Source of the DNA: a virus
Reading direction: 5' to 3' (one strand)
Virus record (IMG/VR): IMGVR_UViG_3300030090_005560
Location: 1-47,182 of that record
DNA length: 47,182 bases
Both the position numbers and the translations under genes were made by a program. Below, one piece after another: positions 9,958 through 39,152 of this stretch. The stretch's first letter is position 1; the number at the start of each line of letters is the position of its first letter. Under the pieces are notes generated by a model. That model saw nothing but the letters and a program-made list of their open reading frames with translations. It was not told where the DNA came from and did no database searches.

Positions 9958-9978
9958 AAAAAAAATGACGGCGGGGGG

Positions 9979-10007
9979 TTGTACTCCGCCTAAATTGGTA
10001 TTATTCT
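9979..10007 (+). promoter_or_regulatory. Early promoter P3
   Basis: TTGTAC (9979-9984), a 17-base spacer and TATTCT (10002-10007) match P1 and P2. The -10 lies in the dyad GGTA-TTATTC-TACC. The transcript begins just ahead of the ArdC-like gene, whose ribosome region ACGGAACTAGCATT resembles those of the other early leaders. Confidence 0.82.
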
Positions 10008-10045
10008 ACCCACTCACTCGCAGTAGCAGCCACGGAACTAGCATT

Positions 10046-18066: not shown

Positions 18067-20454
18067 TTATCTCCCTGGGATGGGTGGCAGGCCGGTGCCA
18101 GTGGCGACGTCAGCAATGGCGACATAGAAATAGCTTGTGCCACTAGTATTGAGTGTTGAAGTAGTATCGCGCAGCTTGAAACCGCCTCCCCCGGTAGAGA
18201 GGAGGTCAAGATCTTTGTGGTCGGTGCCTTCAGCGCCGTCGCTATCTGCCTGCAGATACACCGAAGAGTCATCGTTTGTAACGTTACGCGCGGTATCGTA
18301 AATTTGCCATTCCTGCCCAGAGCCGCTGCCCTTGATTAGCAAAAAGCGAATTTTAAACCCAGTTAAAATCACTGGCCCGTCAACGTTTCCATTGCCAACA
18401 TATTCCCCAGCTTGCAAAAGCCCTGGCACGTTTCGGAAACAATACATCACATAAGTTCCGGCACCGAATATGGTGCCTCCGTTAACTACTGTAGATGTAG
18501 GTAGCGCCGTATAAACAGCGGAGTTGGTAGCGACCGCGTCAGTTGTATCCAACGTTAAATATTGCGTGCCACCCATGCCCTGCATCCATGTGTACCACGC
18601 GTCCGTGCCATTGCGTCGTTTGATAGTTACGAAATCTGGCGCACCTGACAGCCCGTGACCGTAAGTGGCAGCCGAGCCAGTAGCAGTAAATGTGGCAACG
18701 GAAATGTGCCCTTCAGACGCGACTTGAACCGTCGTTGTTATGCTCCCGTTGCCATTGCTCGCCGTGGTGCCGCCGTTAATTTTCCAAAGCCATGCGGCAT
18801 AGGTAGCCCCACTATCGTTAGTGCTATCCGCGTTATCAACACGTATTCCGTCAGTTTGAAAACTATCTAACCCCGCCTCAGTCGCCTCGGCACTGTTAAC
18901 ATCTGAAGCGACAACTTTTGTCACGCCTCGGCTTGAGTCAATTAACTTGTGGCTTTGCGACCCGTTGCGGCGCTTGTGCCACATAAAATCTGGTTGAAAA
19001 CCTGCGCCAGTAATATCACGATTGTCAGCCGCGTTGCCTGTGTACAACAGTGTTTGAAACACATCAGCGCCCTGCGTCCCCGGCTTTGCAAGATTGCTAT
19101 ATTTTGGGGGCGTATACCCTGTCGTTGGGGTGTGCGTCATGTCAGCGACCTTCGCGACAATGCGGGCGTCTGCATTGTTGTACGCGTCCATGGCAAAAAA
19201 CACTGGCGCTTCTAGGCCTGCCGACGACGTCGTTGACTGTAACGACCCGCCTTTGTACCAGCGGATAACGTTGCTATTTAAGTCGACTTCTATCGCTATG
19301 TGGTCGTTGGTGGTGAAAGATGCCGGTGAGCTATCAATCGTTGACCCCTCGTGGAGAATTGCGCCGCTCGGGTCATATCCGTAGCTGCCCGGAACAGCAG
19401 CGCTGCCTAACTCGTGCGACCCGGAGGTGGCATGCACCGAGTCGTCGCGCATAGTCGCCGCGTCCACCAGTCCAACTTTAGGATAGCCAGATGCGTTGTT
19501 TGCAATGTCGAATTCAATGACATGCTTACCTGAATAAAACCCTGGCGTAACCACTAACAAATTAGCTTCAGACCCGTCCGCCGATCCACCGACAGCCCCG
19601 CCTTCTTCAAAATAAACGTTGCCGCCACCGCGCAACAGCGGGTTAAAAATCGGCAAAGGGTCTGTGGGCGTGTCATCACTGCCGTTCGCCGCATCAGACA
19701 TACTGCTTGCGGTGAAGTTATTCCCTTTGCTGCTGTCGTCAGTGCCGTCGCCAATGTCACTGGCCAGAAAAAAACTTGCAGTTCCGCCAGCGTTGGCAAG
19801 CGCTTTCAAGTCAGCTTCGGATTTAAGATAGTGAACGCTTCCGTTCGTTCCTACGGTGTGGCTATCCAACACGTCGCTTGGCGTGAGCGCGGTGTTATCC
19901 GCGTGCAAAATAGCTGCAAAAGAACCTTCCCAATAATTTTGCAGCGAGCTATAACTTTGCACACCAATATGTTGGCTAGTGCCATCGTTCCACGACGTAT
20001 CGTAATTCAGGCTCGGATTTGTACGGTTTGTTGATTGCTCAACCTCATTCACATACAGCCGCCAGCGAAGCGCGGCAGACGCATTTGCAGTATCGCAAAC
20101 GCACAAAAACGTGTACCACTCACTATCTCGAATTAGACCGTCGCTATAAACAGCAGCATTTACGCTGCCGCCGCTGTAGTCAAAAAATTGCAGGTCTTGC
20201 TCGGCGCGCAACAAAAGAGCAGTTTGAGATGAAGTGCCGCTAGCACATTCAAAAATATAACGACTACGTGCGCTAAAATCGGTAACTCGAAACGCACCAA
20301 ATATTGACCATTTGCGAGTGCTAGTGCCCGTGACGCTGCTGCGCGACAAGTAATCAGCGCTGCCGTCGAACCACGCAGAGCGAGTAATGTTGTTGGCTTC
20401 GGTCCAGCCACCACCTCCCGCTGCTTTGAACCTACCTTGAAGTGGGTTGCCCAT
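18067..20454 (-). CDS. Tail fibre or receptor-binding protein with concanavalin/SPRY-like and DUF7483-like domains
   Basis: The 795-residue product has a Gly-rich N-terminus. A LamG/concanavalin-like region follows at about 20-225 (SAWFDGSADYLSRSS, ALRWRLYVNEVEQS), then a SPRY-like region at about 280-440 (GFYSGKHVIEFDI, YGYDPSGAILHEG, AIEVDLNSNVIRWYKGG). The long C-terminal beta-rich part (AGFQPDFMWHKRRNG, GAPDFVTIKRRNGTDAW, YFYVAIADVATG) resembles the DUF7483 domains of many environmental phages. Such proteins bind surface glycans. It starts at the stop of the fibre with the T7-type N-terminus (TAATG), so the two probably assemble together. Confidence 0.82.
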   Translation of the reverse strand: MGNPLQGRFKAAGGGGWTEANNITRSAWFDGSADYLSRSSVTGTSTRKWSIFGAFRVTDFSARSRYIFECASGTSSQTALLLRAEQDLQFFDYSGGSVNAAVYSDGLIRDSEWYTFLCVCDTANASAALRWRLYVNEVEQSTNRTNPSLNYDTSWNDGTSQHIGVQSYSSLQNYWEGSFAAILHADNTALTPSDVLDSHTVGTNGSVHYLKSEADLKALANAGGTASFFLASDIGDGTDDSSKGNNFTASSMSDAANGSDDTPTDPLPIFNPLLRGGGNVYFEEGGAVGGSADGSEANLLVVTPGFYSGKHVIEFDIANNASGYPKVGLVDAATMRDDSVHATSGSHELGSAAVPGSYGYDPSGAILHEGSTIDSSPASFTTNDHIAIEVDLNSNVIRWYKGGSLQSTTSSAGLEAPVFFAMDAYNNADARIVAKVADMTHTPTTGYTPPKYSNLAKPGTQGADVFQTLLYTGNAADNRDITGAGFQPDFMWHKRRNGSQSHKLIDSSRGVTKVVASDVNSAEATEAGLDSFQTDGIRVDNADSTNDSGATYAAWLWKINGGTTASNGNGSITTTVQVASEGHISVATFTATGSAATYGHGLSGAPDFVTIKRRNGTDAWYTWMQGMGGTQYLTLDTTDAVATNSAVYTALPTSTVVNGGTIFGAGTYVMYCFRNVPGLLQAGEYVGNGNVDGPVILTGFKIRFLLIKGSGSGQEWQIYDTARNVTNDDSSVYLQADSDGAEGTDHKDLDLLSTGGGGFKLRDTTSTLNTSGTSYFYVAIADVATGTGLPPIPGR

Positions 20455-21968
20455 TAGCGATGGTCCTGTGTTATCGCCGCGATAATATCGCTACCTTTTT
20501 TGTAAAGTGATATCACGTCGTACGCATTATCTGTAGTAGAAATGGTCGGAGCTGTCGCAGCGGGCCATTTAACAGCAGCAGGCCACCCCGTAACAGTTCG
20601 CGCACCAGAGCCCTGTTGTATGATTAAAGTTGCCCACGCGTTTTCTGGCAAATTAGAAATCGTGATAGAAGTTATGTTTTCCGTTAAATCCAGGAAACAA
20701 TCACCCCCAGCAAAATCAAATGTAACAGCGTTTGAAGACGACGTATCTGTTTGGAGCGTCATGCGCTGCTGGGCGGTGTAAACATTTTCAGCAGACAACT
20801 CAAGCCTAGACGCCCAGACTGCAGCGCCAGCGCTTGCGTCAACGCAAATGTAAAAACGGTCGGCTGTCACATCGACCCAAACAGACCCCACGGAATAACC
20901 GTCGTTTGTGTCGTCTCCCGCCGTTGGCGCTGACGTGGCGTCGTATTTATTTTGCGCTAGCCCAGTCGCAGGCGTGAAAATTGTCATCAGCCATTGGTTA
21001 TCATCCTGGTCGCCAATAAAGTTTTTAACGTCGTATTGGTCGGTGATAACGTGTGACGCAGCGCCGTTAATTGTGCCGCTACCCTGCGCTTGCACAGTAA
21101 CGGTATTTGCGTCGCTGGTTAGCTTAGCTATAGCGTAGCGCTGGTCTGATGACTCGCTGCTTAAATTTGGCAGCTTTACAATCACATTGCCGCCAGACGT
21201 ATCGACCTCAAACAAGTCGCCATCATTTGCGTTACTGATTGTGTAGGGCGAATTGGCATACGTGATGTCAACAACATCCCTGAAAAACCCGCTGGCGGCA
21301 GATGCCGCCGCCGCTGCCGCGCTGCTCGACGCGCTAGTCGCTGACGCAGCTGCGTTAGTCGCGGACGTGGCCGCACTTGTTGCAGAACTCGCCGCACTTG
21401 TTGCGCTTGCAGCAGCAGCAGTAGCGCTAGTCGCAGCGTCGTCAGCCCCACTTTCAATTTGCGTTAACGTTTTAGTTGACGCTGTTGGCTGCCCGCCAGC
21501 AGTAAAAGCAAACAGCTTATTGGCTCTCGTTGCCAACAACGGCAAATTATCAAGCGACGCCTCGGTAATTGGCGCTGTAACTGTGCGGTCAAAAATTTCG
21601 TTTTGCCGCAAATTTTGACGAACCAAATTGTCGAATGCGGCTTCAATGTCTACCGGACTTATTACCCCGCCACGAGGCAACGCTGTTTGCTGCAAAAATG
21701 CCGGAGTCAGCCTAACAACCAGGGTTTGCCCTGATACTGGAGTGTAATCTGTAGGACTTGTGTCAACCGTTACGCTACCAGCGGCGCCAGTGCCTGCTCC
21801 AGTAAGCGTGTATTGCGTACCCTCTGTCCAAGCCGTCTCAACGCCTGCTGAACTAACCAGCACGACAGAAACTTCATTGTTTGCGCTAAATAAAAACGAC
21901 GTTGAAAAAACAGTCGTTGCGCCGTCACCTGCATAAGTGACTTTATTAGTTTCGCTAGAAACTGTCAT
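20454..21968 (-). CDS. Tail fibre with T7-type N-terminal adaptor
   Basis: The 504-residue product starts MTVSSETNKVTYAGDGATTV and reaches LPRGGVISPVDIEAAFDNLV at about 98-117, the pattern of T7-like fibre N-termini that dock on the tail. An Ala/Ser/Thr-rich coiled-coil repeat (SAASSATSAATSATNAAASA-like, about 175-227) forms the trimeric shaft. The following SGFFRDVVDITYANSPYTIS and LPNLSSESSDQRYAIAKL begin a beta-rich tip. The short length and the separate 795-residue gene behind it suggest this is the adaptor of a two-part fibre. RBS: GGGGATAGGTAA. Confidence 0.9.
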   Translation of the reverse strand: MTVSSETNKVTYAGDGATTVFSTSFLFSANNEVSVVLVSSAGVETAWTEGTQYTLTGAGTGAAGSVTVDTSPTDYTPVSGQTLVVRLTPAFLQQTALPRGGVISPVDIEAAFDNLVRQNLRQNEIFDRTVTAPITEASLDNLPLLATRANKLFAFTAGGQPTASTKTLTQIESGADDAATSATAAAASATSAASSATSAATSATNAAASATSASSSAAAAAASAASGFFRDVVDITYANSPYTISNANDGDLFEVDTSGGNVIVKLPNLSSESSDQRYAIAKLTSDANTVTVQAQGSGTINGAASHVITDQYDVKNFIGDQDDNQWLMTIFTPATGLAQNKYDATSAPTAGDDTNDGYSVGSVWVDVTADRFYICVDASAGAAVWASRLELSAENVYTAQQRMTLQTDTSSSNAVTFDFAGGDCFLDLTENITSITISNLPENAWATLIIQQGSGARTVTGWPAAVKWPAATAPTISTTDNAYDVISLYKKGSDIIAAITQDHR

Positions 21969-24900
21969 TTACCTATCCCCTGTGAAAAGCACGCGTTTCA
22001 TGCCTTCTGGCGTCCAAATATCTTCAACTGGATGTTCCAAGTCGCCTTCCACATATTTATATAGCCAATCTGTGCTTTTAATAATCTGATTAGTACCGGG
22101 AACACCTTTGGCATAACCAACAGCGCGAGCTATGGCTTTTGCCTCACGCGTAGTCATCTCGTAATCCTCGTCCGTTAACATTCCAAACACTTCTTGGCCG
22201 CCAGTAGCAATTGCTGAAAACACCGACTCTGCTGGCGTAAAAGAGGGCTTAAAGCCAGAAGCAATACCGCTTGCAACGTCTCGTATAAAAAACACTTGAC
22301 CCGTTGCGTATAGCAACGTTTGTAGCGCCAGCCACTCTGAATAGCTCATGTTTTCTTCATCTTCTTCCGTGAAGCTTTCCAAAAGAATTGCCCCAAAAGC
22401 GCCCGGTATTAACGTTAGCAACGTCGAGTGATAGAGAAACGCAGCAACGTTTGTTGCTGTTTCTGCTACCCCCTGTGATTGCCTTATCTTGTTAAACGCT
22501 TCTGCCTGCAAATTGTATGTGGTATTAAAATACGACCCAAACATTGTGACAAGCTTTGACAGCTCATCAAGCGATTGAATGTTTGACAAATTCAAATTGC
22601 CGCCAGTGCCTTGCGAGCGCCTTACAACACTGTCCGCGTAAGCAATTGCATTCGACTCATCGCCTTCTGCGACATTCTTAACTTTCCCGGCCATCGCTTT
22701 TTCGTAAGCACCAAGCCATGTCGGCATTGACACCGAATACACATCCAGGAACAACATTGGCGCAAACCCAGCTTTTTGCGCGCTCTTTCCTAATGACCCC
22801 GATATGTCAAATTCAATTTTGTTTTGAACTTCATTTAGCTCGCGCGTTGCAACTCTTGCTCGGTTGCGCATAAACAAGCTTTTTGCAAACACTTGCCGAG
22901 CGTTGTCGTACATTGAGTAGCCAGGGACTCTAAGCGACAATAAATGCGACCCAGGCTTACTTCCGCTTAAGTACCATTGAATTAAGCCTCTTGTCATATA
23001 CGTCGGGCCAAGAACCGAAATTGACTGCAACAGACCAAGCGGCGTAGACAAAATGCTTTTAAGGTTTAACGCCATAATGGCGTTTGCTGCTTTCATGCGA
23101 ACACTGCGCGCAAATTGCCCCGCTGGCGTAATTGGCGCGGCTCGCCCTTGCGCAACCGTAATGACAGTCCTTCGCATTTCTCGCAGTCCAGACTCACCAA
23201 TTGCATCTTTAATTGCGTCGCTTACAGCTGAGTCGGTCAAAATATTGTCTGCGTTAACAACCGCCTGCCTGAAAGCAAGGTCATGCGTAACTTGTTCAAA
23301 ATGGTCCATCAGCACATCTAGGCCCAATCTGATTGGGCGCCCGCCAGAACCTTTGCGCGCAATCGTGTGATTATGCGCAGTCATTGCCGAGCCCGGATAG
23401 CCGCCTACAAGAGCGTTTTCAATATTCATCTCGCCTTCGCGAGCAACTTGCTCACTGGCATGGGGGTTGTACTTTAAGGGGTAATACCCGCCTTTAATTA
23501 CTTTGCCGTTTGAAGTAAATGGCAACGCTTTAACTTTAGGGGGAGCAAGACCGCTTTCTTGCTTCTCAAGATTTTTAATTCCGATCGTGACCAAATTTCC
23601 ATTGTCGTCATAAACGTCTTCCCAAAACGAATCGACTAAATCAAAAATCTCTTGAACTACTTGTCTGTCTTTTGCCGACAGCATGTCTAACACCGCTTGC
23701 AAAGCGCTGTCGCCCCACTCGCTTTTGCCTATGGCATTGCCGTTGCTGTCTCTTGGCGTAAACAAATCTTTGAGCTGCTTATCGTCCAACAACGCTTGGC
23801 GTGAGCTTTCATTTCCCGAGTTAAGCGCAATTGCTAAGCGCTCTTCATGAGTTAACGTTACGTTAGAATTTATACCCGGCACTTTTTTCGCAGAGCCAAA
23901 CGCTAAATTCGACGAATACCAAGATGAACCGGCAGACCTCATGCGGCGCCGTTCGTCCAGGTTGTAAGCGCTAAAAATTTTGTCTACACCCTGAACAATT
24001 TTTCTACTCAACTCGGCTTTAACGTCTTCGCCATCTTGCAGCGGCCTGAATAACGCTTGCCACAGCGGACCCATGTCTTGGAAATTTTCTAATTGACGAA
24101 CAAGGCTTTCTAGCTTGCGATGCGACGCTTGGAACCATCTCTTTTTGGCGCTCTCTGACTCTTCTTTTGCGGTTAGTATTCTCCCGTCTTTAATCTTTCT
24201 GCGCGGCTTTGCGTTTGTTGCGTTTCGTATATGCTGCGCTAATTGCATATTTCGCAACATACGTTGCGCTTTGCTTGCCTCCGCATTGCGACGACCTAAA
24301 TTCTCAAGCATCTTTGTAAGCGCTTTTAACGCCGCAAATTCGCTGGTCGTCATTTCCGACCAATGTTTAAGCATAAACGCTTTGGGCTGAACTCCGTTTT
24401 CGTCAAAATCGCCAATACTTATTAGTTCGCCTGGGACGCTTAGCGCTTCACCTTGCGCCTGCTTTGCATCGATCCAACTCATAACGCCTGTAGCTAACGC
24501 TCGCATTTCTGGCGTAATTTGACCTGCTGCCTGCCATTGCTTTGGCGACTCTTTTAACCCAAATATATTGAGCAGCGTCTTAATCTGGCCAATGTATTCA
24601 GGCGCAATCTTTTTTGGATCGATTTTCTGCGTCTGTAACTTGCGCAATTGTTTTCGCGTTTTATTAGCTTCGTCGCGCAATTTGAGAGTTTTGCGGAATA
24701 ACTGATGATTGAGCAAATGCTTTTGTTTGCTTTCATATGCGCCTAAAAGGTCACCGGCAGCAGCACGTCTTTCTGCTTCCTGCGCATGGCGAACAGATGC
24801 AGCCTCGTACTTAAGCGGCGATAACAATTCAGCAATTGGCGTGAAGCTGATAATTTCGTCAGCCATTACTCTGGCCAAATCTTGTGTAGTCTTAGGCTTG

Positions 24901-27900
24901 CCCAAAGACTCTGCTAGAGCGTTCAACTCAGACAAAATTACTTTTTGCCTTGCCCCGTGATACAAGTTTTCTTTGGCTAACCGTTCTCGTGTTCCGTCAT
25001 TGGCCGGGTCACCCAGCTTTTGACGAACCCGTTGCGTAGCTTCGTTATCAATAATTTCTTGAGGCGGCGCCAAATCACGCATGGCAGCAATTAGACTTGC
25101 GCCATCTTGATATCCTAATGCCTCAGCCAGTACATCTGCGTTAACGCCGTCAATTGCGTAGACAGCGCGTCCTCTTGGGCCTCTTGGAATGTTGGCTAAA
25201 TCTTGCGGCGTAAAGCCTGCTTCCACGAGCGCTTTTTTGCTAAGGCGCTGCCCCTGCAATCTTTGACGCATTTTTACTTGCTGAATTGGCGCGTCTGGCT
25301 CAGGCGCTAACGTCCCGCCCGTCAAAAACAACCACGCCTTATATTGCGGCATTGCCCAAAGCTCTGCGGCTACCTGCGCGCGCTCTGCTTCATACGCGGC
25401 TTGCCATTCAGCTTCTTTCTCGGCCTGCTCTAGCTCTGCATCAAGTAACAACAACCGCTGCCGGTCTAATTCTTCGGCCTCTTCTTGTACGGCCATAAAT
25501 TTGGCCTGATTTTTTGGATCCATCATCGCCACTATTGTTGGCGACGCGTTTGCGTTCATGCCTGAGCTTTGACGCATAATTTGCAGCTCTTCATCAGTCG
25601 CCAACATCTTGTCAAAGACGTCGTTGATTTCAGGCGACAACGTCGTACCCAGTTTGCGCAATCTTGTGTATATGAACGTTAACCAACGTCTGAACATAGA
25701 AAACGCAGACCTGAGCGCTGCGCTTGGCGCCTTACCTTCCATAAGGTATTTCTCGAACGAGCGCGCGAGTAGCTCTTGTCGGTCTCTTGCGGCATCACGC
25801 TCTTCTTGCGTTTTTGCTCGGTCCGTGTAATCCATGTCGTAAGCGCTTTCTGCGCCTACCAGTTTTAGCATCGCCGCATAATTGTCTTTTATTCGTTGCG
25901 GCGCATTTTCTGCTAGCGCCATACGCTCAAGCAACTCAACAAATACATGCCCTGTTTCATGCAAGAACGTTGATTTGTCAGCGTTTTGAAACAAGAAAAT
26001 AGTTGTTTTTTCCGGCTGAAATTCAGTAGCCCCAAGCGGGTCAGCTTCTACTGCTGTTGACGGTTCCGCTACTTCGGCAGGCTGATTAAGTATTGCGCTT
26101 TTTTTCTGGTCAGCAACCGGCTGTCCGTTTTCCTGCAGCATGGTGATGGCGTCTTCATCCCACACCACAAAATTGCGCGTGCCGTCGCCTGCTGCGCGGC
26201 TACCACCATCCCAATACTTAATGCCGGGAATGCCTAGCTGATTTAAGTTATGTGATGCTAGCTCCGCTGGGCTTTTTTGCACGCTGGTATGCGTCGCGTC
26301 AATTGCGTCATAAATGCTCGCAATTTCGTCGGCGTGCTCGGGGTGCAATTCCAGCGCCAGCGATCTTTTGAGCGGGTTAATTAGCCCCGTAATCTCCCTG
26401 AGCCGAAGCACGGCATCTTTTGCGCGTCTGCCTTGCGCCGCTAGCTCTTTGCCTGCATCCTCCGCAAATGCATCATAAATCGCCCGCCCGGTCACTTTTG
26501 CCGCGCCATAACTATCTCGGACAAGACCGAGCCGGGCATTCACTGTTGGATGTGCGCGAATCGCCTCCAGCACATTCTCCCGTTGCTCACTCAGCGGCGC
26601 GTCCCAATCCAGCATGTTTTCAACGGCGCCGTCTGCAATGTCGACCGTGTACAGATTGCCTGTTGGAGGCTTTACATCATCAAAATTTCTATAAGTATCT
26701 GGCGGGTCCCCCTCTTCGTTGAACAAAATCGCAGAATTGTCTGACAATCGATACAGTGTTGCCCCATATCCACCTGCCCCCGTCACGACATAAATCGTTT
26801 CGACCGCATCATCAAGCAGCTTGTCCAACTTATCGCTTGCAAACTTCAAACCGCTTGCGTAATACAACTGGTCTATTTGATAAGCCAATTGCTCCGGCTC
26901 GGCTTCTTGTGCGTTTGGGTCCGGCTGCCAACCGCGTTGTGCTAAGGTGCGCTGATAGTCTTCAGCTACCTCGCGATCTTCCGCAAAATAAAGTCCCCAC
27001 CCAAACGCTTGGGCTCCTTCTCCGGTGCCTATTTTTTGCAACGAAAAGGCATCAACTGTATGTGGCGTTCCGTGGAATGCTTCCTGGTAAAGAAAACGCG
27101 GATCTTGCGGGTCAAACGCGCCGACATTGCCAACTGCGCTTTTCACCTGATTTGGTCTAAACGCCAGATAATGAGTGGCTCCGCGAGAGTCGGGCATGCC
27201 GCTAAATTCAGCAGTATGAATAATGCCGTCGTAGCCCATTCGCTCTAATGCCAAACGCACAACTTCGTTGCCAATAAAGTTGGCGTTTTCATCGACCAAA
27301 AACGGAATGCCAGTGTCTTCTGCTTGTTTTGCAAACATTACTGCGTCGTACAACCCGACGCCTTCCAGGCCTAAGCCAAATTCGTTTTCCATTGTTGTTC
27401 TAATGTTGGCTTCACGATCTGCGTTGTCAGCTAAATCAAAAGCAGCAGTTTCTAATTCTTGAATAAACTCTGCTAGCGTGCCCTCAATTTCAAAATCGCC
27501 TTGCTCAATTGCAATCTCTTTTGCAACAAACTCTCTAAATTCTTGCAGGTCTTCTGCATTCAAGAGCGACATTTCGTCTTCGTCAAATCTTTCGTTCAGA
27601 CGCTCGTCTATCTCGCTTTCGTCAACACGGCCAATATCTGGAATAACATCAACCGTCAAAACAGCTTCGCTGTCCCTGCGCAAGTCCGCAGGGTTTTGCA
27701 AAGAAAAATACACGGGCGATATGTTGGGCGCGTCGCCGCCAACTTGCGTTGCGGCAAACGCTTCCCACCAATCAAATGGCACTTCATTTGGCTCTACAGT
27801 CAACTCCGGGTTGTCCGGGTCAATCTCAAAGCCCTCATTACTTTCTTCTCTAATTACAGGGTCGCGCTGAGCAGCAGGTATCAAACTGCCATCCGCGTTG

Positions 27901-30900
27901 CGTACTTTTGTGTCCAGCATCCATTGCCGAAACTTGGGCATGTCTTCCCAACCATAAATACGCTGCGCGTCAACTTCCAATTGCTCAGCGGCTTCATAAA
28001 TCTTGGACTGGAGGTCTGGGCCTTCTTGGGTCGCGTAATAGCTGCTTACATCTTCAGTTGAATCAGACGCGTAAAACGCTTTACCAAAGAAATTCTCGAC
28101 ATTAGCTTGGCTGATATCGGCTCTATCGACATCTGGCCGCGTTGAGCCGTGGTACACCACTAAAGGCTCGCCGCTTTCGTCCACGACTTTGCTGTTGCCA
28201 AACCAAGCCTTAAACTCGCGCGTCTCGGTTTGAGCGGCTTGCCGCATTTCGCTTTGCGTCGCACTACCCGCAACATATTCTGCGACTGCGTTTTCGCGAG
28301 ATACTGGAAAAGGAATTACATTCCGGCCTTTTTCAGACAGCAACGTTTCTGGCCAAACTTCGATGTAATCAAAGTCACCTTCGCGTTGTTCACTCCATCG
28401 AATAACATCGGTGCTCAAGCGTACGGGCATTGTCGTATAGCCCATATCTTTAAGCGCGCGCGCTCTGTGCCTTCCCTCGTGCCCAGTAACATTTGCTTGT
28501 TTGTCGCGGCCAACATCTATCGATAGAAACGGCACTTCAAATTTTTGCCCAGCAGCCAACATCTCTGCTACACGACTTGTTTTTTGAGCGTCTTCCCCAG
28601 GCGCAGCCATGGCAAGAAAATCATCAATAGCCATGCTAATGACTCGGTCCCTTGCTTTATGCGCAGGAAACGCCTCTACATCTTCTGGCTTGAAAAAATC
28701 TGTTGCGTCTAGCTGGTCGGGTTGTGCGGGCGTAGGAGATTGAAACAGCGTGCGAGTCAGCTCTGCGTCTGACCTGTATGGCTGCTCGGCGTTTTGATAC
28801 TCCATGTAGACCACGTCAGGGCGCCCGTAAGAAAAACCCCCAAATGTTTTATAGTCCCAACCATCGGGCTTGTATTCTTCGCTCCAAGTATCGCGCCCTA
28901 CTTCCACAAACCCAGATGCCGCGTAGAGGTACGGCAAAATTGTGTCGAACGCGTCTAGCTTGGTGCCGCCTTGATGTACTGCTAACGACAGGAAATATGG
29001 CACAACGCCTTTGTGTGGCGAGCCTTGCAGATTAAATACAGATACGATGTCGCCGTCTGGCTTAATTGCAAAACCAGCTTTGCCGTCATCAGTAACCCAT
29101 AGCTGCATGTTTTCGTATGCAGACTCAGGATACACATACACTGCGGCGCCAAATTTGCTTTCTGCTTTACTTTGTTCAATTAGCTTAACGAATGTAGCGG
29201 CGTCTGTTTCGCCCACAGCAGGCGCCGAATAGCCAGCTTGCGTGTACGCACTAACTATGCGTCCGTTGGCTACCAGCCTGCCATTCTCGCCATCTCTGCT
29301 ACGTCCTCCGGTGACGCCCCTAATTCGCCCGCTGCGCGCATCAATAAATCGTCTTCGTAAATTGAAGACGGCCTGTTCGCGTCTTGTAACTGGCGCAGGT
29401 GCTGTTCCTTCGATTGCTGCGTTTGCTTCAAGGATTGCTTTGCGCTCTTGATAGCTTTGCTTCGCTTCTTTTTCATTTATTGACCTACCTTCTTGCCACG
29501 TCCACTCTGGCATTAATCCGATTTTTTGCTCGGCAAAAATCGTATCTTCAGTTAATGCCGTGCGATTCGCCTCACCTGTTGGACCATAATTGACCCAACT
29601 GTTTTGGCCTCTTGTCTCTGTCGTAACAGCCCCTGCTGCTTCATCGCTGTACAAGCGAATATGCGCCTGCCAAGCGTTTTCCTCCCCACGCGCGCGGAAC
29701 AGGCTGCCTTCTACGCCATGCCCAAACACGTCATGCACAATGCGGAACACGTCGTTAGCGCGCAAACGCTGGCCATTTATTTCGTAGTCAGTAAAAGCCA
29801 GTAACGGATTTTCCGCAATTTGGCTCTGAGGTATTAGTGCTGGCGCGCCTTCTTCGCTTGTGCCGTATCCAAAGTCCGTTGGGAAAAACCACAAATGCTT
29901 GTTGACGCTTAAATCTTCAAGCGCCTCTTTGACAGTTGGGTATGGATTTTCAAAGCCTTCGACTATTGGAGTGAAGGTGTATCCCAATTCTAGAATGTAT
30001 TCATATTGAGCAAGCGTTTCGCGAATCATTGCGTTGTAAGACGCTTGCACAGCCGGGTCGTTTGGCGCGTGCTCCATGTCCTCGTACGCCTGCGCAATAC
30101 GCTGCGCGCGCTCTATGTCTACCCGTGCATATTCTGCTTGATGGTCGTGTTCTATGCCTGCTTGACGGGCATAATCTGCTGCAGCTTCTCTAAGCCCCGG
30201 CACCGCGCCGGGGCTGCCTTGTTCTAGCCCTTTGAGCCGCGACCTGCCGTTTTGCCCAGTGAGCCGAACCGCCCCCTGCTTTGCCGATACAAGCGCGTCT
30301 GCCACGCCCTCTCGTCCAAATCGGTCGCTGTCGGGTCGTTCTCCCGCCGCCTCCGGTCCTGCACTATCTCGCTGGAAGAGGGTCCCTCTGATTTGGGGTC
30401 CAATTCCCACGGTATCCCCGTCTGCAGAAGATACATCTCCAAATCCGAACCCTTCGGCATGTTGTCTGGATCGAATATTGAGTCCAGCCAGTTCTCCATC
30501 GTAACTGGCAAGCCTAGACGGATCAGTCGCTGTATTTCTGGCGTCGTCGCTGGTTGCCCACTCTGGTGCCCGAAGTCCACCTGCCATCTCCAATATCTGA
30601 GAGCGCGCAGCATCTTTGCTAATGGCGCCGCGCTCGTATTGCGCCCACACCGCTTTTACGGCGGCTTTGTTTGCTTTGTTCTTAAAAGCAGGTATAAATA
30701 TACTACGAATTGCCTCCCAAGTAATGCTTTGTATTTGCCTTGGAAGACGGTCAATGCCTGGGTCGGCAGCCGCTCTACGATACGCTTCTGCCAGTATTCC
30801 ATATATGCCTTGCGAACCGGTTACGTTTGAACTCGGAGCGCCGCCGCCGCCAAAATTTTGCGCGACCTCAAGGTCTGACCCGCCAAGCGGCAACATCAGC

Positions 30901-32402
30901 GCAGCAGCCACGGCATGCGTGTCGATCGTGACTTCGCCAAAAGGGCTGTTTGGCGTCAGTATGTTGTTGTAAAAATTGCGGACCTTATGTTCGCCGCCAA
31001 TAAACGCGCTAATGCCCTCAACACTGGGGTCTCGCACCGCAGATATAGCTTTGGCTATTTCTCGGAAAGTGCCCCACGTTGCGCGTGCTGGCGTACCGTC
31101 GTTGTTTGTTGCTAAATCGCCAAACGCGCCTTCTGGCGTGACAAGCCGATATGTTCTAGGGTTTTCTGCTTCATCATATGCGCGCAACCACATGGCGCGT
31201 TCGATGTCGCCGTTTTGGCCTTCTGGCAAATCTGAGTACGTTTTATCGCCTGCAAACAACTCTCTGTATTGCGCAAGCTTGAGGGCGTTGTTGCGCTCAT
31301 CGCGCTCCCATTCAGCTTTCCTTTTAGCGCTTTTCTTGTCCCAATTTGCTGGCTTCTTTCTTGGCGCGTATTTAGCGTCAGCCCACGCCTTCATAGAATC
31401 TAACGGTGGCATGGCAACTGCGTTACCAGTTGTCAAATGCGTGTGAATATCTAACACGCGTTGCGCCAGCGTGACGTTCTTAAACCAATCCATTTGCGGA
31501 CTCAGCGCTGCCAGCACTGCTGCGACACTGCGGTCCGGCACGCCGTAAATCTTTGCCCACTCTGTGGTTATGCGACGGGCGCCGTCGTACCACTGGTGAC
31601 TGCGCTCAATTAGGTCTGGATATTGCTCCGCCACCAAATTGTGCAACCACATCAAATTGTCTTTGACGTGCTCTATATATTCTTCGATAACCTTCTCTGG
31701 CTTACGACTGCTTGTCTTAAATCCAGCATGTAACTTAAGCGCGCTTGCCATTTTCTTTAGCTGCTCAGGCGGCAACTGCAATACGTGCTCGACACCTATC
31801 GATAACGGCTGGCCGTCGTAAACGGCCTGCTCTGCCTGCCCAGCCGTCGCTTTGGCGCTAGGCACCCTGGTAGACATCTGGAACGGGTGCGTGCCGTCAT
31901 CGCGCTTCCCGTCTGCTTCTGAGTCGGGCATGTCGTAGCGCTGATACAAAATGGGCGCAACGACTTCTATGTCTTGCTTAAGTCTTTTTGAAACCTCATC
32001 AAGAACTAAAGGGCTTAGTACCGCTAAATCTTGCGCGTCAATGCCTTGCCCTTCCAAATTAGCAAGTATGTCTGACACTACTTGATCTATGTCATATTCG
32101 TTCAGGGCAGGACTTAAGGTCGGTACTTCACGCTCAGCTCTAGACTCACCAGCCTCCGCGCTTTCTGACGCAGCTTCCACGCTTTCCTGCACAGCCTCTA
32201 CGGCCTGCTCTACAGTTGGCGCCTGCGCGTCTATGCCTTGCTCTGTCAGCTGGTCACGCAATGTCTGCTCGTCTTGCCGCAATTCTTCAATGTACTGCTC
32301 AACGGCCGACACATCATCACCCGCGCGCATTGCAACTTGCCGCAATTCATTTGCGTCGTCAGGGTCAAATTCCAATGACACTAAGCATGATTCTAGGCTC
32401 AT
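21969..32402 (-). CDS. Giant polyvalent internal virion protein (3477 aa)
   Basis: This one frame covers about 22% of the genome. Regions seen, by residue: an HhH-DNA-glycosylase-like part at about 225-600 (KVRNFYNNILTPNSP, VTIDTHAVAAALM); a conserved VHDVFGHG...GEENAWQAHIRLYS...TTETRGQNSWVNYG signature at about 880-930; a GNAT-like part at about 1090-1190 (HQGGTKLDAFDTILPYLYAA); a ParB-like motif TGHEGRHRARAL near 1305; an ADP-ribosyltransferase-like start FKAWFGNSKVV...VVYHGST near 1394; a second one, FHGTPHTVDAFSLQKIGTGE, near 1775; and a zincin HETGH at about 2148. A helical C-terminal third resembles LPD-type polyvalent domains. Such proteins are packed in the head and ejected. No break in the frame is seen. 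Confidence 0.88.
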   Translation of the reverse strand: MSLESCLVSLEFDPDDANELRQVAMRAGDDVSAVEQYIEELRQDEQTLRDQLTEQGIDAQAPTVEQAVEAVQESVEAASESAEAGESRAEREVPTLSPALNEYDIDQVVSDILANLEGQGIDAQDLAVLSPLVLDEVSKRLKQDIEVVAPILYQRYDMPDSEADGKRDDGTHPFQMSTRVPSAKATAGQAEQAVYDGQPLSIGVEHVLQLPPEQLKKMASALKLHAGFKTSSRKPEKVIEEYIEHVKDNLMWLHNLVAEQYPDLIERSHQWYDGARRITTEWAKIYGVPDRSVAAVLAALSPQMDWFKNVTLAQRVLDIHTHLTTGNAVAMPPLDSMKAWADAKYAPRKKPANWDKKSAKRKAEWERDERNNALKLAQYRELFAGDKTYSDLPEGQNGDIERAMWLRAYDEAENPRTYRLVTPEGAFGDLATNNDGTPARATWGTFREIAKAISAVRDPSVEGISAFIGGEHKVRNFYNNILTPNSPFGEVTIDTHAVAAALMLPLGGSDLEVAQNFGGGGAPSSNVTGSQGIYGILAEAYRRAAADPGIDRLPRQIQSITWEAIRSIFIPAFKNKANKAAVKAVWAQYERGAISKDAARSQILEMAGGLRAPEWATSDDARNTATDPSRLASYDGELAGLNIRSRQHAEGFGFGDVSSADGDTVGIGPQIRGTLFQRDSAGPEAAGERPDSDRFGREGVADALVSAKQGAVRLTGQNGRSRLKGLEQGSPGAVPGLREAAADYARQAGIEHDHQAEYARVDIERAQRIAQAYEDMEHAPNDPAVQASYNAMIRETLAQYEYILELGYTFTPIVEGFENPYPTVKEALEDLSVNKHLWFFPTDFGYGTSEEGAPALIPQSQIAENPLLAFTDYEINGQRLRANDVFRIVHDVFGHGVEGSLFRARGEENAWQAHIRLYSDEAAGAVTTETRGQNSWVNYGPTGEANRTALTEDTIFAEQKIGLMPEWTWQEGRSINEKEAKQSYQERKAILEANAAIEGTAPAPVTRREQAVFNLRRRFIDARSGRIRGVTGGRSRDGENGRLVANGRIVSAYTQAGYSAPAVGETDAATFVKLIEQSKAESKFGAAVYVYPESAYENMQLWVTDDGKAGFAIKPDGDIVSVFNLQGSPHKGVVPYFLSLAVHQGGTKLDAFDTILPYLYAASGFVEVGRDTWSEEYKPDGWDYKTFGGFSYGRPDVVYMEYQNAEQPYRSDAELTRTLFQSPTPAQPDQLDATDFFKPEDVEAFPAHKARDRVISMAIDDFLAMAAPGEDAQKTSRVAEMLAAGQKFEVPFLSIDVGRDKQANVTGHEGRHRARALKDMGYTTMPVRLSTDVIRWSEQREGDFDYIEVWPETLLSEKGRNVIPFPVSRENAVAEYVAGSATQSEMRQAAQTETREFKAWFGNSKVVDESGEPLVVYHGSTRPDVDRADISQANVENFFGKAFYASDSTEDVSSYYATQEGPDLQSKIYEAAEQLEVDAQRIYGWEDMPKFRQWMLDTKVRNADGSLIPAAQRDPVIREESNEGFEIDPDNPELTVEPNEVPFDWWEAFAATQVGGDAPNISPVYFSLQNPADLRRDSEAVLTVDVIPDIGRVDESEIDERLNERFDEDEMSLLNAEDLQEFREFVAKEIAIEQGDFEIEGTLAEFIQELETAAFDLADNADREANIRTTMENEFGLGLEGVGLYDAVMFAKQAEDTGIPFLVDENANFIGNEVVRLALERMGYDGIIHTAEFSGMPDSRGATHYLAFRPNQVKSAVGNVGAFDPQDPRFLYQEAFHGTPHTVDAFSLQKIGTGEGAQAFGWGLYFAEDREVAEDYQRTLAQRGWQPDPNAQEAEPEQLAYQIDQLYYASGLKFASDKLDKLLDDAVETIYVVTGAGGYGATLYRLSDNSAILFNEEGDPPDTYRNFDDVKPPTGNLYTVDIADGAVENMLDWDAPLSEQRENVLEAIRAHPTVNARLGLVRDSYGAAKVTGRAIYDAFAEDAGKELAAQGRRAKDAVLRLREITGLINPLKRSLALELHPEHADEIASIYDAIDATHTSVQKSPAELASHNLNQLGIPGIKYWDGGSRAAGDGTRNFVVWDEDAITMLQENGQPVADQKKSAILNQPAEVAEPSTAVEADPLGATEFQPEKTTIFLFQNADKSTFLHETGHVFVELLERMALAENAPQRIKDNYAAMLKLVGAESAYDMDYTDRAKTQEERDAARDRQELLARSFEKYLMEGKAPSAALRSAFSMFRRWLTFIYTRLRKLGTTLSPEINDVFDKMLATDEELQIMRQSSGMNANASPTIVAMMDPKNQAKFMAVQEEAEELDRQRLLLLDAELEQAEKEAEWQAAYEAERAQVAAELWAMPQYKAWLFLTGGTLAPEPDAPIQQVKMRQRLQGQRLSKKALVEAGFTPQDLANIPRGPRGRAVYAIDGVNADVLAEALGYQDGASLIAAMRDLAPPQEIIDNEATQRVRQKLGDPANDGTRERLAKENLYHGARQKVILSELNALAESLGKPKTTQDLARVMADEIISFTPIAELLSPLKYEAASVRHAQEAERRAAAGDLLGAYESKQKHLLNHQLFRKTLKLRDEANKTRKQLRKLQTQKIDPKKIAPEYIGQIKTLLNIFGLKESPKQWQAAGQITPEMRALATGVMSWIDAKQAQGEALSVPGELISIGDFDENGVQPKAFMLKHWSEMTTSEFAALKALTKMLENLGRRNAEASKAQRMLRNMQLAQHIRNATNAKPRRKIKDGRILTAKEESESAKKRWFQASHRKLESLVRQLENFQDMGPLWQALFRPLQDGEDVKAELSRKIVQGVDKIFSAYNLDERRRMRSAGSSWYSSNLAFGSAKKVPGINSNVTLTHEERLAIALNSGNESSRQALLDDKQLKDLFTPRDSNGNAIGKSEWGDSALQAVLDMLSAKDRQVVQEIFDLVDSFWEDVYDDNGNLVTIGIKNLEKQESGLAPPKVKALPFTSNGKVIKGGYYPLKYNPHASEQVAREGEMNIENALVGGYPGSAMTAHNHTIARKGSGGRPIRLGLDVLMDHFEQVTHDLAFRQAVVNADNILTDSAVSDAIKDAIGESGLREMRRTVITVAQGRAAPITPAGQFARSVRMKAANAIMALNLKSILSTPLGLLQSISVLGPTYMTRGLIQWYLSGSKPGSHLLSLRVPGYSMYDNARQVFAKSLFMRNRARVATRELNEVQNKIEFDISGSLGKSAQKAGFAPMLFLDVYSVSMPTWLGAYEKAMAGKVKNVAEGDESNAIAYADSVVRRSQGTGGNLNLSNIQSLDELSKLVTMFGSYFNTTYNLQAEAFNKIRQSQGVAETATNVAAFLYHSTLLTLIPGAFGAILLESFTEEDEENMSYSEWLALQTLLYATGQVFFIRDVASGIASGFKPSFTPAESVFSAIATGGQEVFGMLTDEDYEMTTREAKAIARAVGYAKGVPGTNQIIKSTDWLYKYVEGDLEHPVEDIWTPEGMKRVLFTGDR

Positions 32403-32846: not shown

Positions 32847-33119
32847 TCAATTGAAGACTTGTTCGCTTGGCATTGGTGCAATCTCTGCACTTGGCTGAGC
32901 TTCGGTTTCAATCCCGCTTAGCTCAGTCATAACCGCATCAAGTTTTGCTATGACTTCACTTGCTTCAGCCATGCGCGCTTCTAGTTGTTGCAACTGAGCC
33001 ATAATCAAATCAAGCTTTTCATTTGAGCCAACCGCCTCTGATGATTGAGGCGGCGGCTCGTTTTTTGGCACCGCTGCCGACTTGTCGATGCCAGGAAAAT
33101 CTCGCCACCTAAGAGCCAC
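32847..33119 (-). CDS. Small coiled-coil protein
   Basis: The 90-residue product has a Pro-rich N-terminus and a helix (KLDLIMAQLQQLEARMAEAS, EVIAKLDAVMTELSG) with clear heptads. It overlaps the upstream internal-protein gene by 11 bases and precedes the membrane protein. It may oligomerise with one of the internal virion proteins. No name is possible. Confidence 0.65.
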   Translation of the reverse strand: MALRWRDFPGIDKSAAVPKNEPPPQSSEAVGSNEKLDLIMAQLQQLEARMAEASEVIAKLDAVMTELSGIETEAQPSAEIAPMPSEQVFN

Positions 33120-35439
33120 GAACGCACCTCAATAACTGCTCTGCTGCATCCATGCGAGTGCGTATCGAATCAAACGCAATACCTGCTGGAATCAAGGCCG
33201 TCTCACCCGTCTCCATTGGCATAGAAATTTCTACATTGCGCCATTCTTGAGATTGGTTTAGCGGGTCTAATTCTTGCTCAACAGCTTGACGCGCCTCTAT
33301 TGCAGCCGACTCTTCTTGCGCAACTTGCTCTGGCGTGCGAACCGTAAGGCCCAAGTCCTCAAAAAACTGCGCCACCGAAAAACCTCGGCCCTCTTTATCA
33401 GCAGCATCTTGCGCAACGCGATAGAACGCTTCGATAACAGACGCCAAAGTCGCTGCGCTCTGCTCCGTTTCTTTGCCAGTTGCTACAAGCTGCTCTGCTA
33501 TAGCATCAGCGACTGCTACAGACTCCGGCGTTGGCTCGGACACATATTGAGCGGTAACTTCTTCAATGCGCTTTCTTACGGAATCAACTTGGAGCGCGAC
33601 TTCGCTGGTGGTCGGCGCGCCCGGCTCTGCGCGCACGTTATTAACAACTGCCTCGGTAACGTCGCTGTCGCTTAGGACTTGAACCATTGTCGCAGCGTTA
33701 ACTTCAACGTCTTGACCGGTCCTAAGCGCCTCGTCAAGCGCTTCAGGGGTAACTCCAACCGACTCAAAAAACTCGACTGGGTTAACACCCTGCGCGTCTA
33801 GCTCAATAGATAATGCTTGCGGCTCAATTAAAACAGGTTCAGCATTTTGGTTTAGAGTATTAAGAAAATCTTCAGCAGCGCTTGGCGAACGATTGTTTAA
33901 ATCACCTTCTCTGAACGCTTCAATTGCTCGAACAACGCGCTCTCTAGCCAATTCAGCTTGTTTTTGCCTGCGAGCGTCAGTTGCCACGCTGAGTGCAGCT
34001 GGCCCAGCGGTCATGCTGGCGCTTGAAATAGAGCCCGCTAAAACCGCTTCTAACAAACGCTCGCTAATTGCGTCCCAAGTAATCTCGGCAAAGTTGCCGC
34101 CTTGTATATCCCGGATAATATGCGTAGCAGCTATTTTAATAGCTTCTTGGACCCCCTCAGTGCCACCTTCCATTAAGGCAGACACAAATTGTCCTTTAAA
34201 CGCCTCTGCTAAAATTTGCCTGCCTGTTTTTGTTGACAGTTGCGACTTCAAAATTTGTCTAAGCGATTGAGACAACGCTCTAGAAACCGCTAAACCGCCA
34301 ACTACCTCAGCGCCTGCCGCCAGCACACCAACGACAAGCGACGCTTTGTTAACTAAATCTCGATTGATTTTGTTGCCAGCAAGGTCTCTGTCTTGCAGGA
34401 ATTCTCTTCTTGCCTCTCCCGATAATTGTTGAAACGACTCAACAGCCATTCCTATCCTGAAGCCGACTTTGCCACTAAATGCCGCAAACGCCGCCGCTTT
34501 TCCTGGACCCACAAGCGCGCCAATAGCCGCTGCAGGCCCAGCAGCAGCTGCCGCTCCTTTCCCACCTTCAATATACAAATTTGCCAAAACAGGCAATTGT
34601 TGAGCGCTGATTTGCGCGTATTTACCAACGGTCGTTCGCGGGACAGCCCCTCGCGATTGATTGATGTAATTCAGTCGCGCTTTTTCTTCTGAACTTAATT
34701 GCGCTGGTGAAAGCCCCAGCTCAAACAACGCCTCTTTTGAAGACAGCGTGTTTGCCTCAATTGACTCAACGCTGGTTGCAACAGCGAACGGAATATCGGC
34801 AATGTCCCTGCCAATACTAGTCAATAATCCTGGTCGCTCTACAACTCTCTCTAGGTCTGCAGGCTTTAGACTTTCTCGCGCGGCAAAAGCCTGGGCAAAA
34901 ATACTTTCATATTCTGCTACTTCTTTTGTCAGGTCTGCGCTTATTGCGGCATTCGACGGGTTTTCTGCCATCCACCGACTTGCCAATGGCGCCGCCTGCA
35001 AATCTTCAGCGCGCTTGTTTATTGCGGCGTCAACTTCTAAAGCCTTTGTGGCTTCGGGGTAGCCTGTCGTATCAATACCTGTTTGTTCATACAGCTCACG
35101 CGCTTTAGCTGCTTGTTCAGGCGAAATCTGCGATTGCAATTCGTTTGCTACATACGGGATAGTTAAATCCGTATCAGCAATAACAGGGCCATCGGCGCCG
35201 GTTTCGACGCCATAAAACTCTGGCTCTATTTCGAGTGCTTCGGTGTCCGGCTCTTCGTCGGCTGCGTCTGCAAATCTATCAATGAGGATTCTGTACGAAT
35301 TACCGGAATCCGTGTATGGCGTGGCAGGCTGGTTTTCTGCGGGCTGCAAAGTGGAGCCAAGCGGCGCCGCTGTCGAGCTTGACGACGCGCCTGATATCTT
35401 TTCTCTCTCTTCAAGAAAGCTTTGGTAAAGCGAACTCAT
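33109..35439 (-). CDS. Internal virion (ejection) protein, 776 aa
   Basis: The protein begins MSSLYQSFLEEREKISGASS and has a disordered Ser/Thr/Glu-rich N-terminus. A central hydrophobic part follows (ANLYIEGGKGAAAAAGPAAA, GVLAAGAEVVGGLAVSRAL, VLAGSISSASMTAGPAALSV) that could insert in membranes, and then a helical C-terminus. The terminal NVEISMPMETGETALIPAGI segment resembles a linker found in phage polyvalent proteins. It lies between the 912-aa protein and the giant protein, where T7-like phages encode the proteins of the ejected trans-envelope channel. No enzymatic motif is visible. Confidence 0.82.
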   Translation of the reverse strand: MSSLYQSFLEEREKISGASSSSTAAPLGSTLQPAENQPATPYTDSGNSYRILIDRFADAADEEPDTEALEIEPEFYGVETGADGPVIADTDLTIPYVANELQSQISPEQAAKARELYEQTGIDTTGYPEATKALEVDAAINKRAEDLQAAPLASRWMAENPSNAAISADLTKEVAEYESIFAQAFAARESLKPADLERVVERPGLLTSIGRDIADIPFAVATSVESIEANTLSSKEALFELGLSPAQLSSEEKARLNYINQSRGAVPRTTVGKYAQISAQQLPVLANLYIEGGKGAAAAAGPAAAIGALVGPGKAAAFAAFSGKVGFRIGMAVESFQQLSGEARREFLQDRDLAGNKINRDLVNKASLVVGVLAAGAEVVGGLAVSRALSQSLRQILKSQLSTKTGRQILAEAFKGQFVSALMEGGTEGVQEAIKIAATHIIRDIQGGNFAEITWDAISERLLEAVLAGSISSASMTAGPAALSVATDARRQKQAELARERVVRAIEAFREGDLNNRSPSAAEDFLNTLNQNAEPVLIEPQALSIELDAQGVNPVEFFESVGVTPEALDEALRTGQDVEVNAATMVQVLSDSDVTEAVVNNVRAEPGAPTTSEVALQVDSVRKRIEEVTAQYVSEPTPESVAVADAIAEQLVATGKETEQSAATLASVIEAFYRVAQDAADKEGRGFSVAQFFEDLGLTVRTPEQVAQEESAAIEARQAVEQELDPLNQSQEWRNVEISMPMETGETALIPAGIAFDSIRTRMDAAEQLLRCVRGS

Positions 35440-38220: not shown

Positions 38221-38676
38221 TTAATTTAGGCCAAACGTTTTTTTGCCAAAGTCGCTTTTGAGCAAAGTTGTACCAGCCTTAAATATACCGCTCGTTAATC
38301 CGGCGCTAGACTTAGCCCTTGCTGCCGCATAATCAATATTTGCTTGGTCCCTAATCGCCTTAGCTTTTGTTGCTGCATTTGCCTCTTCAAGCCTCGCCGC
38401 AAACTCACCTTCTCTTGCGGTATTTTCCGAGATGAGCAACGCCGACCCTTCCCCGGGCGCACCGCCTGTTCCAGCTCTAAGCGCTGTTTGCAACGCAAGC
38501 AAGTCACTTGTTTCTCGCCGCTGTCTTCTGGCATTTAATGCACCAATTTCTTGTTCGCGTTGCGCGCGCTGCCTATCAAGCTCTTGCTGCTGCCTTGCAA
38601 TTTTGTTTTCTTGCTTGGCCTGCATGGCAGAGCCAATAAGGTTTGAAGCAATGCCAATAGCTGTCATCAAACACAT
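38221..38676 (-). CDS. Internal virion protein, T7 gp14-like
   Basis: The 151-residue product starts MCLMTAIGIASNLIGSAMQA and continues as a long helix (RQQQELDRQRAQREQEIGAL). GTGGAPGEGSALLISENTAR and a C-terminal AKSSAGLTSGIFKAGTTLL follow. This hydrophobic start, coiled coil and Gly-Ser middle are characteristic of gp14-like ejection proteins that enter the outer membrane. It directly follows the GNAT gene (overlap of one base). Confidence 0.82.
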   Translation of the reverse strand: MCLMTAIGIASNLIGSAMQAKQENKIARQQQELDRQRAQREQEIGALNARRQRRETSDLLALQTALRAGTGGAPGEGSALLISENTAREGEFAARLEEANAATKAKAIRDQANIDYAAARAKSSAGLTSGIFKAGTTLLKSDFGKKTFGLN

Positions 38677-39152
38677 TAGTGATAACCCTCCGTCATCATG
38701 TAAAACGCACCCGTGCGCTCCATACCCCAGCGCTCATACAAACGGGCAACGCCACCGGGACTGCTTTCAAGACAAGTAAACGAAATACGCGCTATCTGAC
38801 CGTTTCTGGTTTCTTCAATAAATTCCATGGCCGCATTAAACAATTTGTGCGCCGCCTTGATTGGAGCGCCATCTTGAACCCACCAAAACAACTCTTCGCA
38901 AAACAACACGTTCTTGTTCCACATCCACGGACCACAAGACACGCCAATTCCGCCTACCAGCTTTTTGTCTACCTCGGCCGCGATAACGGTGACCGCAGGA
39001 ATGTTGAGCAATTCCCACATGGTCGACTCCAAAGACGAGCTGTCTACTTGTACGCCACCCATTACGCCGCTTTGCTCAAGAAACGCTCTGGCGCCACTGA
39101 TGACGTCTTGCAAATCACGCTGGCTATTAAGGTCTGCTGTCCGAATAATCAT
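38676..39152 (-). CDS. GNAT-like virion protein (gp13-like position)
   Basis: The 158-residue product has a GNAT-type layout: VTVIAAEVDKKLVGGIGVS (the beta4 region), ELFWWVQDGAPIKAAHKLF, then ARLYERWGMERTGAFYMM at the C-terminus, the usual LYxxxGF-like end. Podoviruses commonly encode such acetyltransferase-like proteins between the nozzle and the ejection proteins. Whether it acetylates or is purely structural is not known. It overlaps both neighbours by a few bases. Confidence 0.8.
   Translation of the reverse strand: MIIRTADLNSQRDLQDVISGARAFLEQSGVMGGVQVDSSSLESTMWELLNIPAVTVIAAEVDKKLVGGIGVSCGPWMWNKNVLFCEELFWWVQDGAPIKAAHKLFNAAMEFIEETRNGQIARISFTCLESSPGGVARLYERWGMERTGAFYMMTEGYH

Follow-up and report, generated by a model that had tools for sequence, protein, structure and literature searches.

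A 3477-residue multidomain podovirus protein with a conserved zincin and core, variable enzyme-like modules and an undescribed HDxFGH domain

The genome and its late genes

The window analyzed here is the whole 47,182-nucleotide stretch of IMG/VR record IMGVR_UViG_3300030090_005560. Its two ends carry an identical 88-base overlap (284-371 and 47095-47182), and the portal gene, whose two parts lie within positions 1-1344 and 46464-47182, reads in frame across the join to give 563 aa. Based on the overlap and the portal reading through the join, the window is probably a complete, circularly permuted podovirus genome of ~46.8 kb. At the left end there are 283 extra bases without explanation. Among named phages we found no close DNA relative of the window.

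The late genes on the minus strand are found in the order portal, major head protein, tail tubes A and B, an acetyltransferase-like gene, an internal virion protein, a 912-aa ORF, a 776-aa ORF, a small ORF weakly matching Rz-spanin, a 3477-aa ORF, and tail fibres. The genes that matter for this analysis are the following:

43297-44187, minus strand: major head protein (phrog_3437, E = 3e-51)
39149-42504, minus strand: tail tube proteins (phrog_376 and phrog_394)
38221-38676, minus strand: internal virion protein (phrog_418, E = 6e-16)
35469-38207, minus strand: 912-aa protein, flanked by the genes for the internal virion protein and the 776-aa protein
33109-35439, minus strand: 776-aa protein, LPD22-like, corresponding to the N-terminal half of phrog_9880 and split partner of the core described below
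21969-32402, minus strand: polyvalent-type ORF of 3477 aa, in the gp16/Bbp10 position, with PHROG and Pfam matches
18067-21968, minus strand: tail fibre/spike genes, directly downstream of the 3477-aa ORF

The 912-aa protein had no Pfam or PHROG matches. We noted that the tail tube protein at 39149-41884 (minus strand) matches the FCCH domain of ubiquitin-activating enzyme E1 (Pfam E = 7e-11), which is likewise annotated in Microcystis phage Mel-JY33.

Similar late-gene orders occur in Mel-JY33, podovirus ctQRb9 and Bordetella phage BPP-1. The order is of the T7 type, with the 3477-aa ORF in the place of gp16: as with T7 gp15 and gp16, the tail tube genes and a small internal virion protein come ahead of it and the tail fibre follows. 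However, sequence homology between the T7 proteins and the 3477-aa ORF is undetectable, so the likeness is a functional analogy only, and no lytic transglycosylase of the kind found in T7 gp16 was detected in the 3477-aa protein.

Elsewhere in the window there is a small second gene of polyvalent type (9965-10933, plus strand), with an ArdC N-terminal domain and an MPTase-PolyVal domain (Pfam E = 2e-30 and 1e-42). Its PHROGs annotation is anti-restriction, and RecE/RecT-like genes adjoin it.

Modules of the 3477-aa protein

The ORF has an ATG start and no internal stops. A preliminary description of this DNA had placed a frame of 3477 residues at 21969-32402, which is exactly right; it gave no strand, and the strand is minus. 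From the N-terminus to the C-terminus we distinguish the following features:

31713-32402, minus strand: N-terminal 230 aa, acidic, probably coiled-coil, conserved only in the viral locus L002
30846-31703, minus strand: DUF7178 domain, residues 234-519 (Pfam E = 1.6e-24)
29487-30185, minus strand: HDxFGH domain, residues 740-972, a candidate metalloenzyme of ~235 aa
29718-29735, minus strand: HDVFGH motif, proposed metal ligands H890 and H895
29595-29624, minus strand: TTETRGQNSW motif, proposed third ligand E929 and pocket residues
28794-29204, minus strand: GNAT-like region, residues 1067-1203 (phrog_2563, E = 9e-10 to 1.5e-12)
27099-28706, minus strand: cassette of ParB-like region and ART1, residues 1233-1768, missing from L002
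28278-28685, minus strand: weak ParB-like region, residues 1240-1375 (two PHROG ParB-like nucleases, E ~0.1)
27099-28229, minus strand: ART1, polyvalent-type ADP-ribosyltransferase, from residue 1392 (ART-PolyVal, E = 4.2e-18)
26163-27092, minus strand: ART2, second ADP-ribosyltransferase-like domain, from residue 1771 (ART-PolyVal, E = 1.5e-5)
26082-26090, minus strand: LNQ, an LxQ motif, residues 2105-2107, candidate processing site ahead of the zincin
25851-26003, minus strand: zincin-like module, residues 2134-2184, with HETGH at residues 2148-2152
22092-25784, minus strand: conserved core, residues 2207-3437, a Bbp10 homologue (phrog_9880, E = 2e-201)

Profile searches with the N-terminal 230 aa gave no significant family matches. 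In Pfam the ORF also matches ART-PolyVal (E = 5.1e-22), and this match, like those to DUF7178 and phrog_9880, goes far beyond chance. ART1 scores 66.9 bits against the ART-PolyVal model, for which the curated cut-off is 31.2, while ART2 scores 26.2 bits and falls under that cut-off, although a profile made from the ART2 alignment matches PARP10/tankyrase chains (E ~0.002). Within the H-Y-D/E triad, the H and Y positions are recognisable in the ART sequence (YHGT, GxGxYF). Of the two ART-like regions proposed from the sequence by eye, the first is thus confirmed and the second moderately supported. The proposed zincin motif is also supported, as its HExxH and a downstream E are invariant in 20 relatives (alignment positions H49, E50, H53 and E111) and the profile matches SprT/Spartan proteins (human Spartan, E = 2.4e-4).

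Two other proposals fared less well. The GNAT-like region is a conserved module seen in 7 relatives, but its eight members had no Pfam matches and there were no PDB sequence matches, so that we have a conserved family with nothing from Pfam or PDB to make it a GNAT. A suggested link between this module and Alice gp113 gained no support from comparison. For the ParB-like motif, the two PHROG nuclease matches listed above are all that was found; exact peptide patterns gave no viral relatives of the segment, and it had no Pfam matches.

In 2017 Iyer et al. (PMC5512222) described a class of polyvalent proteins in phages and conjugative elements, and proposed that they are delivered with the DNA and processed by their own metallopeptidase (MPTase) domains. 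The 3477-aa protein resembles them in being a large multidomain late-gene protein in which an ART and a zincin-like MPTase stand together with further catalytic domains. It combines at least two unrelated catalytic-type domains in one polypeptide (ART, zincin, DUF7178, HDxFGH), and it has the late, virion gene context of an invasive element. It differs from the described members in that the function of DUF7178 is undescribed, the order of cargo, zincin and core is fixed, and HDxFGH matches no Pfam family and thus is none of the deposited LPDs. The polyvalent reading put forward in the preliminary description therefore stands for the unrelated domains, the ART, the zincin and the late virion context; its GNAT and ParB parts are unconfirmed, and its glycosylase part holds at the level of a motif only. 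The word glycosylase is absent from the text of PMC5512222.

Conserved core and variable cargo

The core, which has hydrophobic segments close to its C-terminus, aligns together with the zincin to phrog_9880 from position 915 of that family onward, and the 776-aa neighbour aligns to the first 656 positions, which means that some relatives have both as one protein. The core HMM matches BPP-1 Bbp10 at 9e-257, and E-values over Bbp10 and five related podoviruses range from 9e-49 to 4.5e-273. Core relatives of the Bbp10 type are found in Xanthomonas, Cobetia, Caulobacter, Pseudomonas and Vibrio phages, and tblastn with the core retrieved 43 phage records; exact peptide patterns from the zincin and core gave no viral relatives. 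BPP-1 Bbp10 and its Rauchvirus-like homologues share the homologous zincin and ~1200-aa core and also lie before tail fibre genes. In contrast to the window protein, Bbp10 has 2052 aa and is without the HDxFGH, DUF7178, GNAT and ART cargo. HDxFGH, DUF7178 and GNAT are also missing from the Bbp10 relatives in the phages of these five genera, of which the Caulobacter relative carries an ART.

Of the 26 ORFs that hold both HDxFGH and the zincin, 25 have HDxFGH first. In this 26-ORF set, GNAT, DUF7178 and ART2 precede the zincin in every case and ART1 in 17/18. The nearest relative, L002 (73% and 62% identity in two blocks), lacks residues 1233-1768 exactly: the window reads LTRTLFQ/SPTP...RFLYQ/EAFHGT, with slashes at the borders, and L002 reads LTRTLFQ/PAFHGTP. 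This clean loss of the ParB-like and ART1 cassette is direct evidence for module exchange. We infer that the zincin and the C-terminal ~1200 aa are the conserved, Bbp10-homologous core part of the protein, and that the N-terminal enzyme-like modules are variable cargo.

A short motif, LxQ, is found 15-46 residues before HExxH in 15 of 21 non-redundant relatives. Random windows give 3.0, and no more than 10 in any of 2000 draws. LxE, LxK and LxR do not occur in this stretch in any of the 21. The distance of LxQ to the zincin varies from 28 to 47, so LxQ does not belong to the zincin as a fixed element. In a held-out set of nine phage and prophage proteins, LxQ was present in 4/9, where 1.7 would be expected (P = 0.07). 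The less strict pattern Q...[RK]G was present in 6/9 against 1.2, but this pattern was picked post hoc. We saw no LxQ enrichment at other module borders. Given that the enrichment is confined to the pre-zincin stretch and given the held-out result, we rejected LFQ/LYQ as a general module-border cleavage signal. P1 DdrB, a polyvalent protein, is known to be processed (PMC5512222), and the prohead protease of a giant phage cleaves after A-x-E (PMC10052503), so a short site of the LxQ form would not be unusual. We consider LxQ before the zincin a lead, which may mark a processing site.

The HDxFGH domain

We counted at least 587 viral stretches with an HDxFGH domain, and the HDVFGHG region has relatives in 544 viral stretches. 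In the window protein HDVFGHG corresponds to residues 890-896 and TTETRGQNSW to residues 927-936. Twelve residues never vary in 76 of 76 diverse sequences (Q799, Y821, H890, D891, H895, F902, G906, E907, H914, T930, Q933 and N934), and E929 is kept in 75/76. By its conservation, this pattern is a putative active-site signature. The preliminary description knew of no function for HDVFGHG and thought it worth separate study, which our searches bear out: sequence profiles had no matches in Pfam or PDB, and although AlphaFold2 models were confident (pLDDT 89 for the first, pLDDT 92 and pTM 0.89 for a divergent member), Foldseek found no significant PDB match for either. Since neither model has such a match, the metalloenzyme reading is drawn from the residue patterns.

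Free-standing HDxFGH genes are present in ~190 actinophages. Those of Alice (gp99, located among head genes) and Skog (gp166), both phrog_3170, have all of the key invariants, lie in virion gene clusters and adjoin a DUF7178 gene, so that what is one polypeptide in the window is encoded by separate genes there. A search for phrog_3170 across 399 genomes of one phylum gave nothing beyond two already-seeded cases. HDxFGH is also found at the C-terminus of ~460-aa plasmid proteins in Microbacterium and Arthrobacter. In three actinobacterial plasmid proteins of this size (L209-L211) the C-terminal motif is an HDxxAH variant, and the N-terminal region is weakly phage-SAM-lyase-like (best E = 0.0015). 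Chromosomal genes occur in Enterovibrio and BD1-7 bacteria, in each case downstream of an AdoHcyase-like NAD-binding gene and adjoining DUF3293, or fused with it (BD1-7). We observed these bacterial operons, comprising the NAD-binding protein, the HDxFGH protein and DUF3293, at L101:4784-7120 and L103:4768-7239, and from them a metabolic role is possible. Two viral sequences (L065 and L097) each have one stop codon in the HDxFGH frame, for which recoding, a pseudogene or an assembly error are possible explanations.

HDxFGH would most likely be a metal-dependent enzyme that uses H890, H895 and E929, given their conservation, with E907, H914, Q933 and N934 as probable further ligands or pocket residues. 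Tentatively, and with a chance somewhat short of even, HDxFGH may represent a new enzyme fold. It would then be a phage-borne metalloenzyme of wide distribution with undescribed chemistry, perhaps non-heme iron oxidation, which is virion-delivered alone or in giant polyproteins and has stand-alone relatives encoded by plasmids and bacterial operons.

DUF7178 as a possible partner

The region that had been described as HhH-glycosylase-like is Pfam DUF7178. Its LGGEHKVRNFYNNIL...TIDTHA looks like the HhH-GPD signature LPGVGRKTANVV...VDTH, and the family conserves a VDTH-like motif (TIDTHA/TVDTHH) and an HhH-like hairpin with a Lys, in register with HhH-GPD. The motif and the hairpin thus stand, while glycosylase homology is unconfirmed: hhalign against HhH-GPD was non-significant (E = 0.3, with 22/120 shuffles equally good). 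We found no PDB sequence matches for DUF7178 and no literature on it.

Alice gp98 and Skog gp165 are DUF7178 proteins (E = 9e-9 and 6e-12) encoded directly upstream of the HDxFGH genes. In viral loci, DUF7178 is fused with or adjoins HDxFGH in 6 of 80, in either order; it comes after HDxFGH in L025 and L077 and before it in the window, L002 and L011. At 6/80, the pairing is recurrent but not obligate. The two domains together could be a DNA-modifying or base-processing pair that alters the incoming phage DNA or the host DNA during infection. The retained DTHA/DTHH motif and Lys hairpin, the adjacency in actinophages and fusion in either order in podoviruses, and the glycosylase annotation of the Skog gene all fit such a pair; but with a hhalign score that shuffles often equal, a majority of HDxFGH loci without DUF7178, and the neighbours of the two chromosomal solo genes hinting at a metabolite substrate, we think it improbable. 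In the broader sense that HDxFGH with DUF7178 acts on nucleic acid or a nucleotide, a joint role is probable, to the extent that such weak indications suggest.

Comparison with aromatic amino acid hydroxylases

HDxFGH contains the HxxxxH...E iron triad motif of the aromatic amino acid hydroxylases (PF00351), with which it shares H[DE]xxGH and the glutamate of a downstream TxExG. It could thus belong to the hydroxylase (Biopterin_H) superfamily as a distant member. In that case it would be a mononuclear iron enzyme with an H-D/E-x-x-G-H ... T-x-E facial triad that hydroxylates a host protein side chain, a nucleobase or a small molecule. Bacterial phenylalanine hydroxylases contain FHDVFGH followed by TVEFG, the order helix-strand-helix-strand ahead of the motif seems alike in both, and the profile score between them is 29.3, compared with at most 24.0 in 120 column shuffles. 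However, this alignment spans only 8-12 columns, and the hydroxylase family was picked after the motif was seen. In the Foldseek search with the first model, human TPH2 came first of 350,542 PDB chains, and the hydroxylase likeness had been recorded before that search, but the match is non-significant (E = 0.13, TM 0.17), and the better second model (pLDDT 92, pTM 0.89) had no hydroxylase among its matches. Loop lengths and the remaining sequence differ, and there is neither a fold match nor a Pfam match. With the weak first fold result not reproduced by the second model, we rejected hydroxylase homology as an established result and kept it as a rival, which we consider unlikely. The two families have a metal-site motif in common, and homology is unproven.

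Proposed role of the protein

That the protein is mainly a structural ejection or cell-wall protein with decaying or non-catalytic N-terminal modules seems very unlikely, for although homologues are annotated as lysin or lysis protein and only the core is conserved throughout the BPP-1-like phages, residues of catalytic type never vary in HDxFGH (76 sequences) or in the zincin (20), and modules are exchanged cleanly rather than degraded. We consider it likely that the 3477-aa protein serves a podovirus as its large internal virion (ejection) protein, with a conserved zincin and core and exchangeable N-terminal cargo. It would probably be located in the head, be ejected with the DNA and aid the genome in crossing the envelope; the gene position and the homology of the core to BPP-1 Bbp10 point to probable ejection. 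Passages on BPP-1 mass spectrometry name only Bbp16 and Bbp17, and we found no proteomics for such a protein in the literature.

As an ejection protein, it would bring its N-terminal ~2100 aa to the host at the first moment of infection as exchangeable cargo, comprising DUF7178, HDxFGH, the GNAT-like and ParB-like regions and the two ARTs. Judging by their family, the ARTs would most likely have host proteins as targets of ADP-ribosylation. By cutting at LxQ or close to it, the zincin may free the cargo from the core. Counter-defence may be one role of the cargo among others.

Overall, the protein is of a known kind, a polyvalent, probably ejected phage protein. The new detail consists of the conserved, undescribed enzyme-like domain HDxFGH and, in the sequences compared, the fixed cargo-zincin-core order and the gain or loss of a cassette. 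A dark region spotted by eye is now a delimited domain of wide occurrence, for which candidate catalytic residues can be named and short stand-alone forms (305 aa in Enterovibrio, 291 aa in Skog) lend themselves to purification. LxQ offers a concrete site for testing the 2017 proposal that metallopeptidases process polyvalent proteins. For the Bbp10-type podoviruses, the injection machinery, which would be the zincin and core, can be told apart from the swappable effector cargo.
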